DNA of 13,461 bases from a candidate division SR1 bacterium CG_4_9_14_3_um_filter_40_9 (lineage in GTDB: Bacteria > Patescibacteriota > Gracilibacteria > Absconditabacterales > Absconditicoccaceae). Below, one piece after another: positions 4,439 through 13,145 of this stretch (position 1 is its first letter; each line of letters begins with the position of its first letter). The position numbers and the translations under genes are program-made. The notes below the pieces were generated by a model that had not been told where the DNA came from, did not search any database, and was given only the letters and a program-made list of their open reading frames with translations. The DNA lies in NCBI GenBank assembly GCA_002791215.1, contig PFWQ01000019.1, positions 1 through 13,461 of the forward strand. The letters are read 5' to 3'.

Positions 4439-5629
4439 TTACTTTCTTAACATCTTAGCTTTCCGATTCTCCAACATATTGTGAAGGTAAGCTATGTTGT
4501 GGAGGGAAAGTAATATTCCTCCAAGCATTTCATTTTCTCTGATGAGATGAGAGATGTAGGCCTTCGTGAAGTGTGTGCAGGCAAAGCATGTACAGGTTTT
4601 CACGAGTGGGGTGAAGTCAGCTTTATATTTTGCATTGGTCATTTTGAGATTTCATTTTGACGAAAAAGCTATGCCGTGTCTGCCGAGTCTGGTGGGGAGA
4701 ACGCAATCAAACATATCAAATCCATTCTCTATCGCATGTAGGATGTCTTCAGGTGTGCCCACGCCCATGAGGTATCTTGGTTTGTCTTCTGGCAATTCAG
4801 AACCTGTATGTTTTACTATTTCTTGAATCAACTTTTTCTCTTCTCCGACGCTTACTCATCAGACTGCGATGCCATCTCGAGCATATTCGCTCAAGAATTT
4901 TATGGACTGGGATCTGAGATCTTTATGTGCTCATCACTGGACAATAGGGAAAAGAACCCCACGTTCTTTATCATATTTTTTCTGGAAATGATCAAATGCT
5001 CTCTTGGCTCGGCGATGGGTCATGTGCATATGTTCTTCGATTGTTTTTTTGTTAGCATCGGCGGGAGAGCAGACGTCGAGCACCATCATGATGTCACTTC
5101 CGAGATTGCATTGGATGTCGACGACATTTTCTGGTGTAAAGAAATGTTTGCTACCATCGTATGGCGAATTGAAATGTACACCTTGTTCTGTGAGCTTTAT
5201 CTGGACGTCGTGTTTAGTCGAAGGTCATCAGGTCATAAGGTCATCGGGTCATTTGGACTTTATGGACCTTTGACTTTCAGACTTTACAGACTTTTTTGAA
5301 AGTCCGAGACTGAATACCTGGAATCCGCCGCTGTCTGTTAAGATCAGTCCATCTCGATTTTCAAATTCATGAAGTCCGCCAGCTTTTCTGATGAGTTTGT
5401 CGCCTGGACGGAGATAGAGATGAAAGGTGTTGGCCAAAATCAGATTTATGGGTGTTTTGGAGCCGGTATATTTAGGATCTTTGAGCATATCCAAAATCAG
5501 TCCTTTGATGGTCGCCTTGGTTCCGACCGGCATAAAGACTGGGGTTGTGAGTTTGATGCCATTGAGGGTAATCTGTCAAACTCTTGCATTTCACTTCTTT
5601 TTGAGTATTTTGAATTGGAGCTTATTCAT
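4439..5629 (-). CDS. tgt: tRNA-guanine transglycosylase (queuine/preQ1 tRNA-ribosyltransferase)
   Basis: Tgt swaps guanine 34 of GUN-anticodon tRNAs for preQ1 (bacterial substrate) in queuosine synthesis. The 396-aa product reads through with TGA as Gly. Seen in order: [40 protein letters not shown] (catalytic Asp region), [29 protein letters not shown] and IAVGGVSVGE (the GG pairs are TGA-TGA), MFDCVLPTR (nucleophile Asp region), and the zinc site CTCFAC with a His 26 residues on in SLHN. The start ATG at 5629 gives a normal N-terminus. Residues about 112-141 form an insertion absent from ordinary Tgt and encoded by an 8-bp-period repeat that brings three TGA glycines. VLDVCSP replaces the usual FDECTP-like segment, but the Asp is kept. 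No other queuosine gene is visible nearby. Confidence 0.95.
5217..5292. repeat. 8-bp-period tandem repeat inside tgt
   Basis: The plus strand reads AAGGTCAT, CAGGTCAT, AAGGTCAT, CGGGTCAT, TTGGACTT, TATGGACC, TTTGACTT, TCAGACTT in succession. The stretch lies within the tgt frame and encodes residues about 113-138, including DLMTGGPST. Positions 5217-5242 match 12961-12986 in the solute-binding protein gene at 24 of 26 bases, in the same orientation and frame. Confidence 0.85.
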
Positions 5630-5659
5630 CAGGAAATGATTTATACTAAAATTTTTTAC

Positions 5660-5727
5660 CCCACCCGACCTCCCCTTCGAGGGGAGGCAATAAATGAAGT
5701 CTCCCTTGGAGGGAGATTTAGAGGGTA
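5660..5727. repeat. Double palindromic repeat between tgt and the AMMECR1-like gene
   Basis: Two adjacent hairpins: CCTCCCCT (5669-5676) with AGGGGAGG (5680-5687), and TCTCCC (5700-5705) with GGGAGA (5711-5716). They lie in the 5630-5774 spacer between two divergently transcribed genes. The CTCCC/GGGAG theme is shared with the copies at 8593, 12578 and 12998. I see no convincing promoter motif in this spacer. Confidence 0.65.
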
Positions 5728-5774
5728 ATATACATAAGTATGTACGGTTTTAGCTTCTACTTTCAACCACACTC

Positions 5775-10982: not shown

Positions 10983-10993
10983 ATGTTGAGCCA

Positions 10994-11650
10994 TTATTTT
11001 TTCCCATTCCATTCGTCGAAAAATTCTTGAAGGAATAATTCCATAAATTTATGTCTCTCAACAACCATCTTCTTTGCTGTTTTTGTATTCATATTTTCTT
11101 TTAGTTTCAAAAGTTTGCTATAAAAGTGGTGTATGGTAGATGGATCCTTTTCAGACTCATCAAATGTGCTTCTATCAAAAGATTTCTCTGGAATCCACAT
11201 ATTAAGTCCATTCGCTCCTCCGAAAGAAAAAGTTCTGCCTATGCCAATTGCTCAAATTGCATCTAGATTGTCTGCATCTTGTAAAATAAGAGTTTCGATA
11301 TCATTTACGGTTTTTCCATTGTCGGAAAAATCATATTCTTCATGAAATTCGATACAATGGAGAACTTTTCATTTCTGTTCTTCTGCTAAGCTAGTTTTAT
11401 CAAGAATTTTTTTAACTTTTGGCAAAGAATCTCTTGGAGAGCAAAATTTTCCACTTTCCTTTTGAATGATTCTATGAATATCATGCAAAAATGCAGAAAC
11501 AGCAATTATCAGTCTATTCCCTCCCTCCTTTTCTTGGATAGTTAAAGCATTATTTAATACGCGTTTTAAGTGATAAATATCGTGCCCGCTACTTTCTGTA
11601 TGGAATAATTCTTTAACTTCTTTTTCAAGTTGTTGGATTATCTCTTCCAT
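10994..11650 (-). CDS. HD-domain phosphohydrolase
   Basis: The 218-aa product has the HD superfamily metal ligands in order: GHDIYHLKRV (His 23 or 27), AFLHDIHR (His 56-Asp 57), LHCIEFHEEY (His 98/103) and LQDADNLDAIGAIG (Asp in DAD, about 130). It resembles the YedJ-like/COG1418 class of stand-alone HD hydrolases, which act on phosphate esters or nucleotides; the substrate is not known here. No membrane segment is seen. Two glycines are TGA, one of them in the conserved DAIGAIGIGR. The start ATG at 11650 is preceded by AT-rich DNA without a Shine-Dalgarno sequence. The solute-binding protein gene lies 34 bases upstream on the same strand, so they may share a transcript. Confidence 0.88.
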
Positions 11651-11684
11651 GAATCTGTATAAATAAGTAAATATTGAAATTTTT

Positions 11685-13145
11685 CTACCAATTCCGACCT
11701 GTCGGTTCGAAGAATCCTCCTATGCCTGTGGCAGGATTTTTTTCTTGGATCATGGAAATGAAATTCGTATTTTTGAGGAATTGTTCTTGGAGGTTCGCAG
11801 GGTAGAGCATCAATGAAAATTGCGATTCGAACTTGAAGATGAGCTCATATTTTTTCTGGATTTTTTGGATGTCGAGAACCGCATTGAATGCTGAGAGCGT
11901 GTCTTGTCGGAGCGGCATGGAGTTGTTTGCTCAGGCTTGTGTGTATTCTTTGGCGAAGATTTTGATTGCTTCATCGTTCTGCGTATTTTTGTCTGCGACG
12001 AATCATCGTCATCTCACTTTATATTCATTGCTCGCTGTGGGAAAGTTGTAGATAGTCAGGTCTGTGATTTGTTTTCCCGATCATCAGAAGTATTTCTCCT
12101 GGATGCTTACATCTGAAAGGAATCCAAACTTGATATTGCCGAGATTGTAGGCGATGATGCAGATATCCGGAAAGGTGATACAATTCGGATTCTTTTTGAG
12201 CAACTTGTTGAACGTTATCTTAAAATTTGCGTAACTTCGTTTGCTTATAGCAGGATTATTGATGGTGTCCAAGATGATATTGTAATTATTTTCCAATCCT
12301 GCGCTGTAGACTTGATGGATGATATTGTAGGTGATGATGAAATAATTCGGGAAACTTTCGTTTCCTTGTTCCAATATTTTCTTATCGTTCTTATCCAATC
12401 ATCGGAGGATGGGCATCTTTATTTTGTTTGTTCTGCTTTCGAGTGCTATGAAGTTTGCAATGTCCTGGAGGTCGAGCTGATTTTCAAAATTTAAAATTGT
12501 ACTGGATGGTGTTAGCGTGACGAGTGGATCCAGAGCGTAAGGAATAAGTGTAGCAAATCCCTCTTCCGCTATGCCCTCAAGCTTTGCTGGACTATAGTCT
12601 CTCCCTTTCACAAGGGAGCCAAGCAAGGTACTGAAAATAGGATGTACGTATGGCGCTATGTCTTCGCCGAGAGCAATCTGTTTACCTTGATAATTTCCCA
12701 ATCGATCTGTCGGTGCCAGATAAAGGTCTATACCTTCTGCCTTCTCTTCTCCTGTAATGATTTTTTTGTAGTATCAGATGTTATCGATTTTTTTGTAGCG
12801 GAGCGTGAGGTCGTATTTGCTTTTCAGCAGTTGCGCCAATTGTTGGAATCAGTCATTATAGAATCGACCAGGAATCAAAATAGTCAAAGGTCATCAAGTT
12901 GAAGGTCCATAAAGTCATCCGGTTATGTCCGTAATGGTTCAAGTAGTAATTCAGTCTAAGGTCGAAAGTCATCAAGTCATAAGGTCTGTTGTCGTTGCAA
13001 ACCCACCACCACTTTGTGGTTCCCCTCCCTTGTCAGGGAGGACAGTGTTATTAGTTGATGAAGTCATAATCCAAAAAAGTGCACCAAAAAGTATGATGCA
13101 GAGTCCTGCTAATATGAGAATGATTTTTGCTTTCTTTGGAGTCAT
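11685..13145 (-). CDS. Membrane-anchored extracellular solute-binding-like protein
   Basis: The 486-aa product ends at TAG, showing TAG still terminates. An N-terminal helix (residues 8-27, after KK) is a signal anchor. The only Cys (16) lacks a proper lipobox. Residues 29-88 form a Gly/Thr/Ser-rich linker built almost wholly from two repeat insertions (VLPDKGGEPQSGGG, then DLMTGGLST and related units). From LTILIPGRF (about 87) the sequence looks like a family 1-type ABC solute-binding domain: YKKIITGEEKAEGIDLYLAPTD, YALDPLVTL, and VRGRGFVADKNTQNDEA near the C-terminal third. Another repeat insert sits at about residues 176-190. About 15 glycines are TGA. It probably faces outwards and captures a small molecule, but no permease genes are in view, so a non-transport role is possible. 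The family call is moderate. Confidence 0.72.
12578..12622. repeat. Bipartite palindromic repeat inside the solute-binding protein gene, copy 2
   Basis: It contains AAGCTTTGCTGGACTATAG followed by the hairpin CTCCCTTTCACAAGGGAG. The same order is seen in the intergenic copy at 2631-2683 (minus strand). It encodes GSLVKGRDYSPAKLEG in the solute-binding protein, in a different phase from the copies at 8593 and 12998. Confidence 0.8.
12886..12986. repeat. GTCAT-type short-period repeat inside the solute-binding protein gene
   Basis: Degenerate 8-bp-like units (AAGGTCAT, AAAGTCAT, AAGTCATA) run through the linker-coding region. On the coding strand they give many TGA (Gly) and ACT/ACC (Thr) codons. 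Positions 12961-12986 match 5217-5242 in tgt at 24 of 26 bases. Confidence 0.85.
12998..13048. repeat. Bipartite palindromic repeat inside the solute-binding protein gene, copy 1
   Basis: Hairpin CCACTTTGTGG beside CTCCCTTGTCAGGGAG. It codes for NTVLPDKGGEPQSGGG directly after the signal anchor. It matches the copy at 8593-8652 in orientation and frame over its first 15 bases except one. Confidence 0.8.

Follow-up and report, generated by a model that had tools for sequence, protein, structure and literature searches.

In-gene repeats of a bacterium with reassigned UGA suggest remnants of mobile elements living inside proteins

Introduction

Why do several genes of a tiny, uncultured candidate division SR1 bacterium, which reads UGA as glycine, carry palindromic or short-period repeats within their reading frames? 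Palindromic elements read in frame inside genes are best known from Rickettsia. In the window (the whole stretch of 13,461 nt analysed here), a first-pass annotation had described such repeats as extra segments in at least four genes, compared them with Rickettsia palindromic elements (RPE), and proposed that the reassigned code makes TGA-rich repeats harmless. Among open-licence PMC papers, we found no prior description of in-gene repeats in a UGA=Gly lineage. We compared the host genes with 59 genomes, none of them of the same genus as the source. Because the same loops in some relatives hold a whole predicted nuclease flanked by such repeats, our analysis suggests a mobile origin, with the repeats as what is left of elements living inside proteins. 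This link to nucleases is new here.

Repeats in the genes of the window

The host genes and their repeat segments are as follows.

4439–5629, minus strand: host gene tgt (queuine tRNA-ribosyltransferase), with homologues of solved structure (best E 9e-90); match in 56 of 59 genomes, own included
5198–5299, minus strand: Tgt insert, residues 111–144, a GTC/GGTCAT palindromic short-period repeat; 2 residues there in solved homologue 10fa
5657–5727, no strand: upstream spacer of tgt, holding a solo CCCC palindrome pair whose first half resembles the DUF559 element of the source's own mnmA at its 3' end
8354–8929, minus strand: two-helix membrane protein, host gene; match in 13 of 59 genomes, several adjoining tilS
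8593–8652, minus strand: palindromic insert of the membrane protein; 10–17 residues longer than each of 10 aligned relatives (12 matched)
8979–10244, minus strand: tilS (PF01171), host gene; match in 54 of 59 genomes
9126–9182, minus strand: GATTGGGAGATT short-period repeat, part of the TilS C-terminal region; shorter than many of 29 aligned relatives
9444–9478, minus strand: solo half of a CCCC palindrome in tilS; about 5 residues above most of 29 aligned relatives
9922–9942, minus strand: ACGAGTG heptad repeat in tilS; about 3 residues above most of 29 aligned relatives
11685–13145, minus strand: membrane-anchored solute-binding-like protein (name from the first-pass annotation), host gene; match in 17 of 59 genomes
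12578–12622, minus strand: palindromic insert of the solute-binding-like protein, 18 extra residues; missing from 12 of 12 aligned relatives (16 matched)
12886–12986, minus strand: variable linker of the same protein, with two stretches of GTC/GGTCAT type
12998–13048, minus strand: CTCCC..GGGAG palindrome in the same linker

All four host ORFs read open under code 25, as the claim that the host frame is kept had it. Outside the insert, the TGA codons of tgt itself face glycine in 101 of 101 site-by-relative comparisons in which the relative uses another codon. The membrane protein gave no Pfam family, and the solute-binding-like protein matched neither a Pfam nor an NCBIfam family. Nothing in the window reached the Rfam gathering scores, and a tRNA search of it found none.

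The description of the repeats as extra in-frame segments stands for tgt, the membrane protein, the solute-binding-like protein at 12578–12622, and tilS at 9922–9942 and 9444–9478. It fails for the third tilS segment, also described as an added loop: since 9126–9182 is shorter than its counterpart in many aligned relatives, it reads as a replacement of host sequence, not an addition. Its unit, GATTGGGAGAT, has just three further exact sites genome-wide, weak for a dispersed family. The stretches at 12886–12986 and 12998–13048 fall in the linker that joins membrane anchor and domain. Since each of the 12 aligned relatives differs there, these stretches cannot be demonstrated to be insertions.

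In tgt, the GTC-GGTCAT units lie in tandem and inverted at 5222–5305. Among 29 relatives aligned as proteins, an insert-like peptide occurs in G022 only, and in the DNA, read for six relatives, G022 carries a related repeat that shares the left edge of the one in the source. Because of this shared edge, the insertion is probably older than the split of the two genera.

Repeat families across the genome

The window is not the only place with such repeats; the GTC/GGTCAT repeat is a family spread over the whole genome, beyond chance. With one mismatch allowed, AGGTCATNAGGTCA has 36 genome matches against 0 for the reversed word, and CTCCCTN{3,33}AGGGAG has 23 sites against 0. Clusters of GTC/GGTCAT number 21 in a 234-kb sample, about a quarter of the genome (18 of its 20 stretches having been picked for GTC matches), against 1 with reversed words; the GTC stretches of the solute-binding-like protein fall below the cluster threshold and outside the 21. 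The clusters span 36–126 nt in units of 8–9 nt. Eleven lie in genes (Tgt, RlmN, LeuRS, RlmE, a pseudouridine synthase, TsaD, RlmD, PheT, GyrA and one unnamed gene), fewer than the 82% coding share would give. Adding nine further word families, which have no control of their own in that count (reversed-word counts were made for some), brings the in-gene figure to 39 of 113; both in-gene counts rest on a simple custom gene caller. "At least four genes" was thus an understatement. Compared with solved homologues, Tgt, RlmE, TsaD, RlmN, GyrA, LeuRS and MnmA all have inserts with little or no counterpart.

The GTC repeats yield recurring peptides similar to KSIKSKVES or DDLMTGGPST, though their reading frames vary. 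In-gene clusters share a common orientation in 10 of 11 cases. Hydrophobicity was considered as the cause and rejected, the open frames of the two strands being alike (Mann-Whitney p 0.21). In 19 of 20 cases folding is better on the G-rich strand, which makes weaker mRNA hairpins a possible cause.

These data bear on a growth of repeats in place, by replication slippage and inverted template switching in tolerant loops with no transposition. The short-period heptads (ACGAGTG occurs at four places in the 234-kb sample, two of them in genes) and the replaced tilS segment look like microsatellite growth, and the tgt repeat of G012 is purely tandem. However, a quarter of the genome has 21 places with the same units where the control has 1, the hosts are unrelated, and whole nuclease ORFs could not form in this way. 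Dispersal by itself already counts against local growth for the CCCC and GTC families, and we consider it improbable.

The same loops in related genomes

The tgt loop holds the GTC repeat in the source (G000) and G022, solo CCCC palindromes in G030 and G031, a tandem repeat in G012, and, in G029 and G016, a DUF559 nuclease flanked by palindromes. The mnmA loop could be read in 18 of 30 loci, the other 12 being without the motif pair, and in 11 of these 18 genomes, own included, it holds one of four repeat families or DUF559. DUF559 occupies it in four (G000, G014, G016, G048), GTC repeats in two (G022, G031), an AAACG repeat in one (G012), GTCATTCTGAG-type repeats in two (G030, G001) and solo CCCC palindromes in two (G002, G017); short linkers are found in seven. 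Homologous segments at the same places are thus not the rule: most orthologues read have nothing or other repeats there, and G022 shares the one in tgt.

Two of the six window palindromes match the ends of the source's own mnmA element: the spacer pair upstream of tgt (34 of 38 positions identical, first half against the 3' end) and tilS 9444–9478 (23 of 27 columns identical to the 5' end). The remaining four do not match those ends. The membrane-protein palindrome at 8593–8652 matched neither own mnmA end when compared with both, and by eye its internal palindrome resembles the sequence flanking L148, a DUF559 gene of G031, on the 3' side.

The nuclease-encoding forms at these sites had been overlooked in the first-pass annotation.

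Nuclease-bearing elements

DUF559 elements have CCCC..GGGG hairpin ends, often within terminal inverted repeats. After 9 of 58 rows had been dropped (sequence missing, or below 60 bits as for L161), the inverted ends score above 99% of simple shuffles at 21 of 49 loci, two of these alignments (L148, L169) not being of palindrome type; 28 of 49 loci fall below the threshold, as do 9 of the 16 in genes. The in-gene share is 13 of 32 in the source's bacterial family and 3 of 17 elsewhere, a difference that is not significant (p 0.12); L135 (MiaA) and L136 (a lamin-tail protein), whose frame continues into the host in a single direction, were left out of the in-gene tally, and 5 of the 16 in-gene loci (L145, L155, L164, L171, L173) have the host profile on one side only or meet a contig end. 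In a tree of 61 rows, the "in gene" state requires 7 changes against about 20 when shuffled, with 12 of the 28 in-gene rows being database proteins selected for being fused. Closely related nucleases occupy different host genes (elp3, L152, and sufB, L171; SH-aLRT 97), and mnmA holds mutually distant ones. All 28 in-gene rows retain the D..E-x-D motif, which we take to be catalytic. In a structure model of the source's own MnmA, DUF559 is folded at residues 161–271, and the repeat-coded stretches 132–140 and 272–279 have pLDDT below 50, with further low-confidence stretches at 340–346 and 461–474.

A second nuclease, GxxExxY, lies inside LeuRS, LepA, RecG and TrhP, in genes for 7 of 8 copies in the source's bacterial family against 0 of 6 outside it. 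Its elements often end in inverted arrays of 8–12-nt units. These ends score above 99% of shuffles at 7 of 13 loci and at 51 of 80 in named genomes (6 of 13 and 29 of 80 fall below). Tested against mismatched pairs instead of shuffles, 15 of 80 pass 99%, a low figure because the ends of different loci resemble each other; direct similarity of the flanks is also common (37 of 80). Going by shared architecture only, the GTC repeats may be nuclease-less relatives of GxxExxY elements; none of the GxxExxY loci seen had GTC-type ends.

The identity of the hosts raises the question of whether the nuclease or linker is selected for a function, such as defence via tRNA-acting enzymes. Among hosts of GTC clusters, 8 of 10 are aminoacyl-tRNA synthetases or RNA-modifying enzymes, against 4 of 30 genes drawn at random with length weighting (Fisher p 2e-4); counting IF-2, YceD and an S1 protein raises the latter to 7 of 30. 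Most nuclease hosts are likewise translation enzymes. Selection for such fusions is nonetheless very improbable in our judgement: nuclease-less repeats have the same host bias, each nuclease fusion is patchy between genera, and GyrA, RecG, SufB and riboflavin synthase are also among the hosts.

Reassigned UGA

At least one in-frame TGA occurs in 10 of the 11 in-gene GTC clusters, and TGATGA falls in the codon frame in 12 of 18 cases. Of all frames of the 21 clusters, 74 of 126 are open under code 25 against 44 of 126 under code 11. From these three observations, recoding widens the range of tolerated repeats, helping without being required. It is not required because DUF559 also lies in frame, with no in-frame TGA in the host reading, in Elp3 (G041) and riboflavin synthase (G051) of two genomes that look standard-code. 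The proposal that UGA=Gly makes TGA-rich repeats harmless therefore holds as a gain in open frames, not as a necessity.

How the repeats may have spread

We propose, with a probability of roughly 60%, that the in-gene repeats are elements of RPE-like kind, which at full length include the gene for a PD-(D/E)XK nuclease, made as part of the host protein. Short palindromic mobile elements of several families would settle in spacers and in permissive protein loops, and would persist in a gene wherever the frame in use has neither TAA nor TAG. At least two families would have full-length forms with such a nuclease (DUF559, GxxExxY), in the source's bacterial family often in frame inside housekeeping enzymes; because both ends and the nuclease stay open, the enzyme would carry the nuclease domain on repeat-encoded linkers. 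The window would then hold forms without the nuclease, of CCCC type in tilS and the spacer, and probably in the membrane protein, and of GTC type in tgt and the solute-binding-like protein. The nuclease itself may drive the spread by cutting an empty site, the element being copied through repair. No target-site duplications were discernible, the relatives being too diverged to see them.

Another agent might instead spread RPE-like repeats, with the nucleases as hitchhikers landing in palindromes or permissive loops. Several sampled families (GTCATTGCGA, CCGCTAAAGACGG, the heptads) have no nuclease tied to them here. In addition, LeuRS site 2 holds a NUDIX domain in G014 and G031 and a serine hydrolase in the source, neither of them a nuclease, so permissive loops may take up domains by other routes too. 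Inverted ends around many nucleases, and ends alike on solo and nuclease-bearing copies, argue against hitchhiking, which we regard as unlikely while granting it some weight. An IS200-type Y1 transposase moving the palindromes, as in REP/RAYT systems, is barely credible. The source does have one Y1_Tnp gene, but its flanks are a CTCCGTGGGTTTACTCCGGAG-type hairpin, not GTC or CCCC repeats (one gene in a genome 88.5% complete), and no Y1_Tnp was found in GTC-rich G022 (15 matches; genome 90% complete). The Y1 transposase was dropped as the driver on these grounds.

More broadly, and tentatively, at slightly less than even odds, nuclease-bearing elements of this kind could form a class of selfish elements in several bacterial phyla: inverted palindromic ends would enclose a PD-(D/E)XK nuclease of the DUF559 or GxxExxY family, all of it read in the host frame with no splicing, and nuclease-less derivatives would supply the in-gene repeats. 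Reassigned UGA would have widened the tolerated frames and let them accumulate in translation enzymes. Because one and the same loop can, between related genera, be empty, carry solo repeats from unrelated families or contain a repeat-flanked nuclease, there is a testable candidate for the moving part. If the proposal is true, a role would be suggested for DUF559 and GxxExxY, nuclease families without a settled one. The loops would also show, as a natural experiment, which parts of enzymes can accept insertions, and would test whether genes become accessible to repeats once a stop codon is reassigned. For annotation, it matters that conserved enzymes are longer or split at element sites.

Comparison with known systems

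Inteins and intron-borne homing endonucleases likewise place a nuclease inside a conserved host gene with a patchy distribution; here, by contrast, it is a PD-(D/E)XK nuclease with palindromic ends in a variable loop, and no intein or protein-splicing family is among the listed Pfam matches of the fused ORFs. CPR rRNA genes carry nuclease-bearing insertion sequences, mostly LAGLIDADG and with some ORFs degenerate (PMC11270868). CPR genes tolerate nuclease-bearing insertions in both cases, but those lie in rRNA, whereas the present ones occupy protein-coding genes and share the host's reading. MITEs and REP/RAYT systems share copies without a nuclease and inverted ends, with terminal inverted repeats in part of our loci, and differ in that the ends of the source's own Y1 enzyme do not match the repeats. 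For MITEs other than RPE, a section of the review PMC10969869 mentions occasional in-frame fusions and calls a wider occurrence conceivable.

RPE are a further close parallel; the same section presents them as short palindromic repeats of many families, dispersed and often in frame in unrelated genes (PMC10969869). The parallel first drawn from the window holds, in that the present repeats are also palindromic, dispersed, multi-copy and in frame inside unrelated conserved protein genes. A length of about 150 bp and a conserved peptide in one frame are typical of RPE. The GTC repeats are 36–126 nt long and built of 8–9-nt units; they share an orientation inside genes (10 of 11), have TGATGA in the codon frame in 12 of 18 cases and yield recurring peptides, but vary in frame. 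Here, in addition, full-length forms encode nucleases, UGA is a sense codon, and unrelated families use one loop in different genera.

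Repeats within host genes

The window is part of contig 72 of a genome of 922,604 bases in 95 contigs (88.5% complete), and the insertion of repeats in frame within its genes is secure. The first-pass annotation held that host frames are kept and that each repeat encodes an extra loop or linker. The frames are kept: the ORFs of tgt, tilS, the two-helix membrane protein and the solute-binding protein are all open under code 25, and TGA is glycine in this genome: relatives using another codon have glycine in 101 of 101 Tgt comparisons. Extra residues are also evident in Tgt, where the repeat encodes aa 111-144 and the solved homologue 10fa has two residues, and in the membrane protein, which is 10 to 17 residues longer than each of ten aligned relatives. 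The claim needs trimming for the other two. In the solute-binding protein, 12578-12622 is an 18-aa insert missing in 12/12 aligned relatives, but the remaining two repeats fall within a linker at which every one of the 12 differs; two of the tilS segments contribute a few extra residues, but the third replaces host sequence and is not an added loop. Outside the window, alignments of host proteins to solved chains break where repeats sit.

Inserts in proteins of this genome against solved homologues (first five by phmmer)
RlmN, aa 129-162: 0 residues in 6fz6
GyrA, aa 237-305: 5 residues in 6qx2
RlmE, aa 60-168: 43 residues in 1eiz, whose first half is weakly aligned
TsaD: alignment broken at about aa 223-243
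LeuRS: alignment broken at about aa 1051-1069
LeuRS, GxxExxY nuclease between aa 280 and 437: 4 residues in 1h3n
LeuRS, serine hydrolase between aa 557 and 753: 13 residues in a solved homologue
MnmA, DUF559 nuclease between aa 128 and 280: 4 residues in 9hlv

The AlphaFold model of this MnmA (mean pLDDT 80, pTM 0.66), whose top PDB match is MnmA/TrmU 2hma, has a folded nuclease flanked by low-confidence linkers.

Repeat families across the genome

The expectation that similar repeats recur elsewhere, in genes as well as spacers, was borne out. AGGTCATNAGGTCA (1 mismatch) occurs 36 times in the genome, against 0 for the reversed sequence, and the CTCCCT..AGGGAG palindrome has 23 sites, compared with none in the control. 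A sample of 233,725 bases (the window and 20 stretches, 18 of them chosen for GTC hits) holds 21 clusters of the GTC/GGTCAT family, the short-period palindromic repeat found in tgt, against 1 with reversed words. Eleven lie inside called genes (at least 25 codons within), nine in spacers and one at a gene end; since 82% of the sample is called coding, genes hold fewer than random placement predicts, yet half. Pfam or NCBIfam matches identify the hosts as Tgt, RlmN, LeuRS, RlmE/FtsJ, an RNA pseudouridine synthase, TsaD, RlmD, PheT and GyrA, along with one unnamed gene that contains two clusters and matches Rad50 below the family cut-off. RNA-acting hosts make up 8/10, against 4/30 random genes (p 2e-4), in a comparison conceived after the hosts were known. 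The A-rich strand is coding in 10 of the 11 in-gene clusters (binomial p 0.012), and 10 of the 11 have in-frame TGA. Nine further word families, counted without a reversed-word control, are internal to genes at 28/92 places, giving 39/113 with GTC; one Elp3 gene (L063) carries five repeat places from four families. Among genomes, AAAGTCCATAAAGTC (1 mismatch) occurs 31 times here, 16 in G031, 15 in G022, 7 in G200 and 4 in G110 (G numbers denote genomes), with any hit in 44/192 genomes, and the reversed control also has single hits in many.

Several other repeats were seen. GCAATGACGG-type palindromes lie in window spacers 8941-8975 and 13185-13235, and the GCAATGACGG word has 32 places in the sample, 9 within genes. 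The long spacer repeat at window 8100-8330 looks common to the N-terminal extension of RlmD (L062 10337-12265), both encoding the peptide KELDLLL.GA.PAIVREGN. An NAD-dependent DNA ligase gene (L064 5288-7567) has about seven AGTACAA heptads, and a Y1 transposase gene (L065 589-951), with hairpin ends of its own, has 15 TGA in about 121 codons.

Nucleases in the same loops

Between genomes, the same loops have different contents, including CCCC..GGGG palindromes (the CCCC family) and DUF559 (PF04480) nucleases. The mnmA loop was readable in 18/30 loci, the remaining 12 being without the motif pair, and one mnmA copy was found in this genome.

Contents of the tgt and mnmA loops (mnmA: 18 loci read; G000 is this genome)
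tgt, GTC repeat: G000, G022
tgt, solo CCCC palindromes: G030, G031
tgt, tandem repeat: G012
tgt, DUF559 ORF flanked by palindromes: G029
tgt, adjoined at a contig end by a DUF559 fragment and palindrome: G016
tgt, short linkers (protein alignment): other relatives
mnmA, DUF559: G000, G014, G016, G048
mnmA, GTC repeat: G022, G031
mnmA, AAACG short-period palindrome: G012
mnmA, GTCATTCTGAG-type palindrome: G030, G001
mnmA, solo CCCC palindromes: G002, G017
mnmA, short linkers: 7/18 loci

Past its editing domain, LeuRS has a loop that contains a serine hydrolase in this genome (L053, contig 12); at the same place by eye, G014 and G031 have a NUDIX domain, whereas G017 and G030 have DUF559 (loci L250, L251, L151, L165). 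Maribacter LeuRS P0032 (703 aa), whose C-terminus seems short, has DUF559 directly before the editing domain, by eye the GxxExxY place here.

PF04480 is present in 33/59 genomes (this one included, with three copies) against 2/14 controls, and GxxExxY (PF13366) in 11/59 against 3/14. DUF559 lies in frame within a host at 16 of 49 loci analysed (of 58 matches listed), with the host matched on both sides in 11 of the 16 (L151 partly by eye, against our LeuRS alignment). GxxExxY is inside genes in 7/8 copies in the genome's own bacterial family versus 0/6 outside (Fisher p 0.005).

In-gene hosts of the two nucleases
DUF559: mnmA x4, tgt x2, leuS x2, rimO-like x2, elp3 x2, fmt, prmC, sufB, riboflavin synthase
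GxxExxY (own family): LeuRS x3, TrhP x2, LepA, RecG

The DUF559 part of this MnmA has matches in 39 database proteins, among them P0001, a near-identical MnmA-DUF559 protein from a public source with TGA translated as Trp. From Pfam accessions or source names, we take the hosts to be MnmA, SufB, CCA-adding enzyme, RarA, urocanase, IspG, LeuRS, DusB and others. Any of the 39 that also have a DNA methylase or HsdS domain may simply be ordinary fusions. Repeat-like peptides stand beside DUF559 in most of the 11 proteins read. In a DUF559 tree of 61 rows and few columns, with 7/58 inner branches starred, in-gene copies group together (7 changes versus about 20 when shuffled); closely related nucleases occupy different hosts, and one and the same host can carry distant ones.

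Relation of the repeats to nuclease-bearing elements

The spacer palindrome upstream of tgt is identical at 34/38 positions to the 3' end of the genome's own mnmA element, and the tilS 9444 repeat matches its 5' end in 23/27 columns; the other four window palindromes tested against these ends had no match. By eye, the repeat in the membrane protein is similar to the 3' flank of a DUF559 gene in G031. The 5' and 3' flanks of DUF559 are mutually inverted above 99% of simple shuffles at 21/49 loci (7/16 in-gene), with a mean of 25.3 for own pairs versus 17.7 for mismatched pairs, and some inverted ends exceed 30 bases. It is well supported that part of the CCCC family represents nuclease-less forms of nuclease-bearing elements, and we infer that the nucleases move the repeats.

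Flank inversion passes the same 99% level at 7/13 GxxExxY loci (5/7 in-gene), and arrays of units about 8-23 nt long occur in the flanks of several. Relatives in named genomes, many from Bacteroidota, number 538; of the best 80, 51 pass shuffles and 15 pass against mismatched pairs; TCTGAAC occurs in 23 of the 45 GxxExxY ends listed. That the GTC family, too, consists of nuclease-less forms of nuclease-bearing elements is plausible. Its sequence differs from that of the GxxExxY ends, so kinship to those elements in particular is a proposal, drawn from an architecture like theirs.
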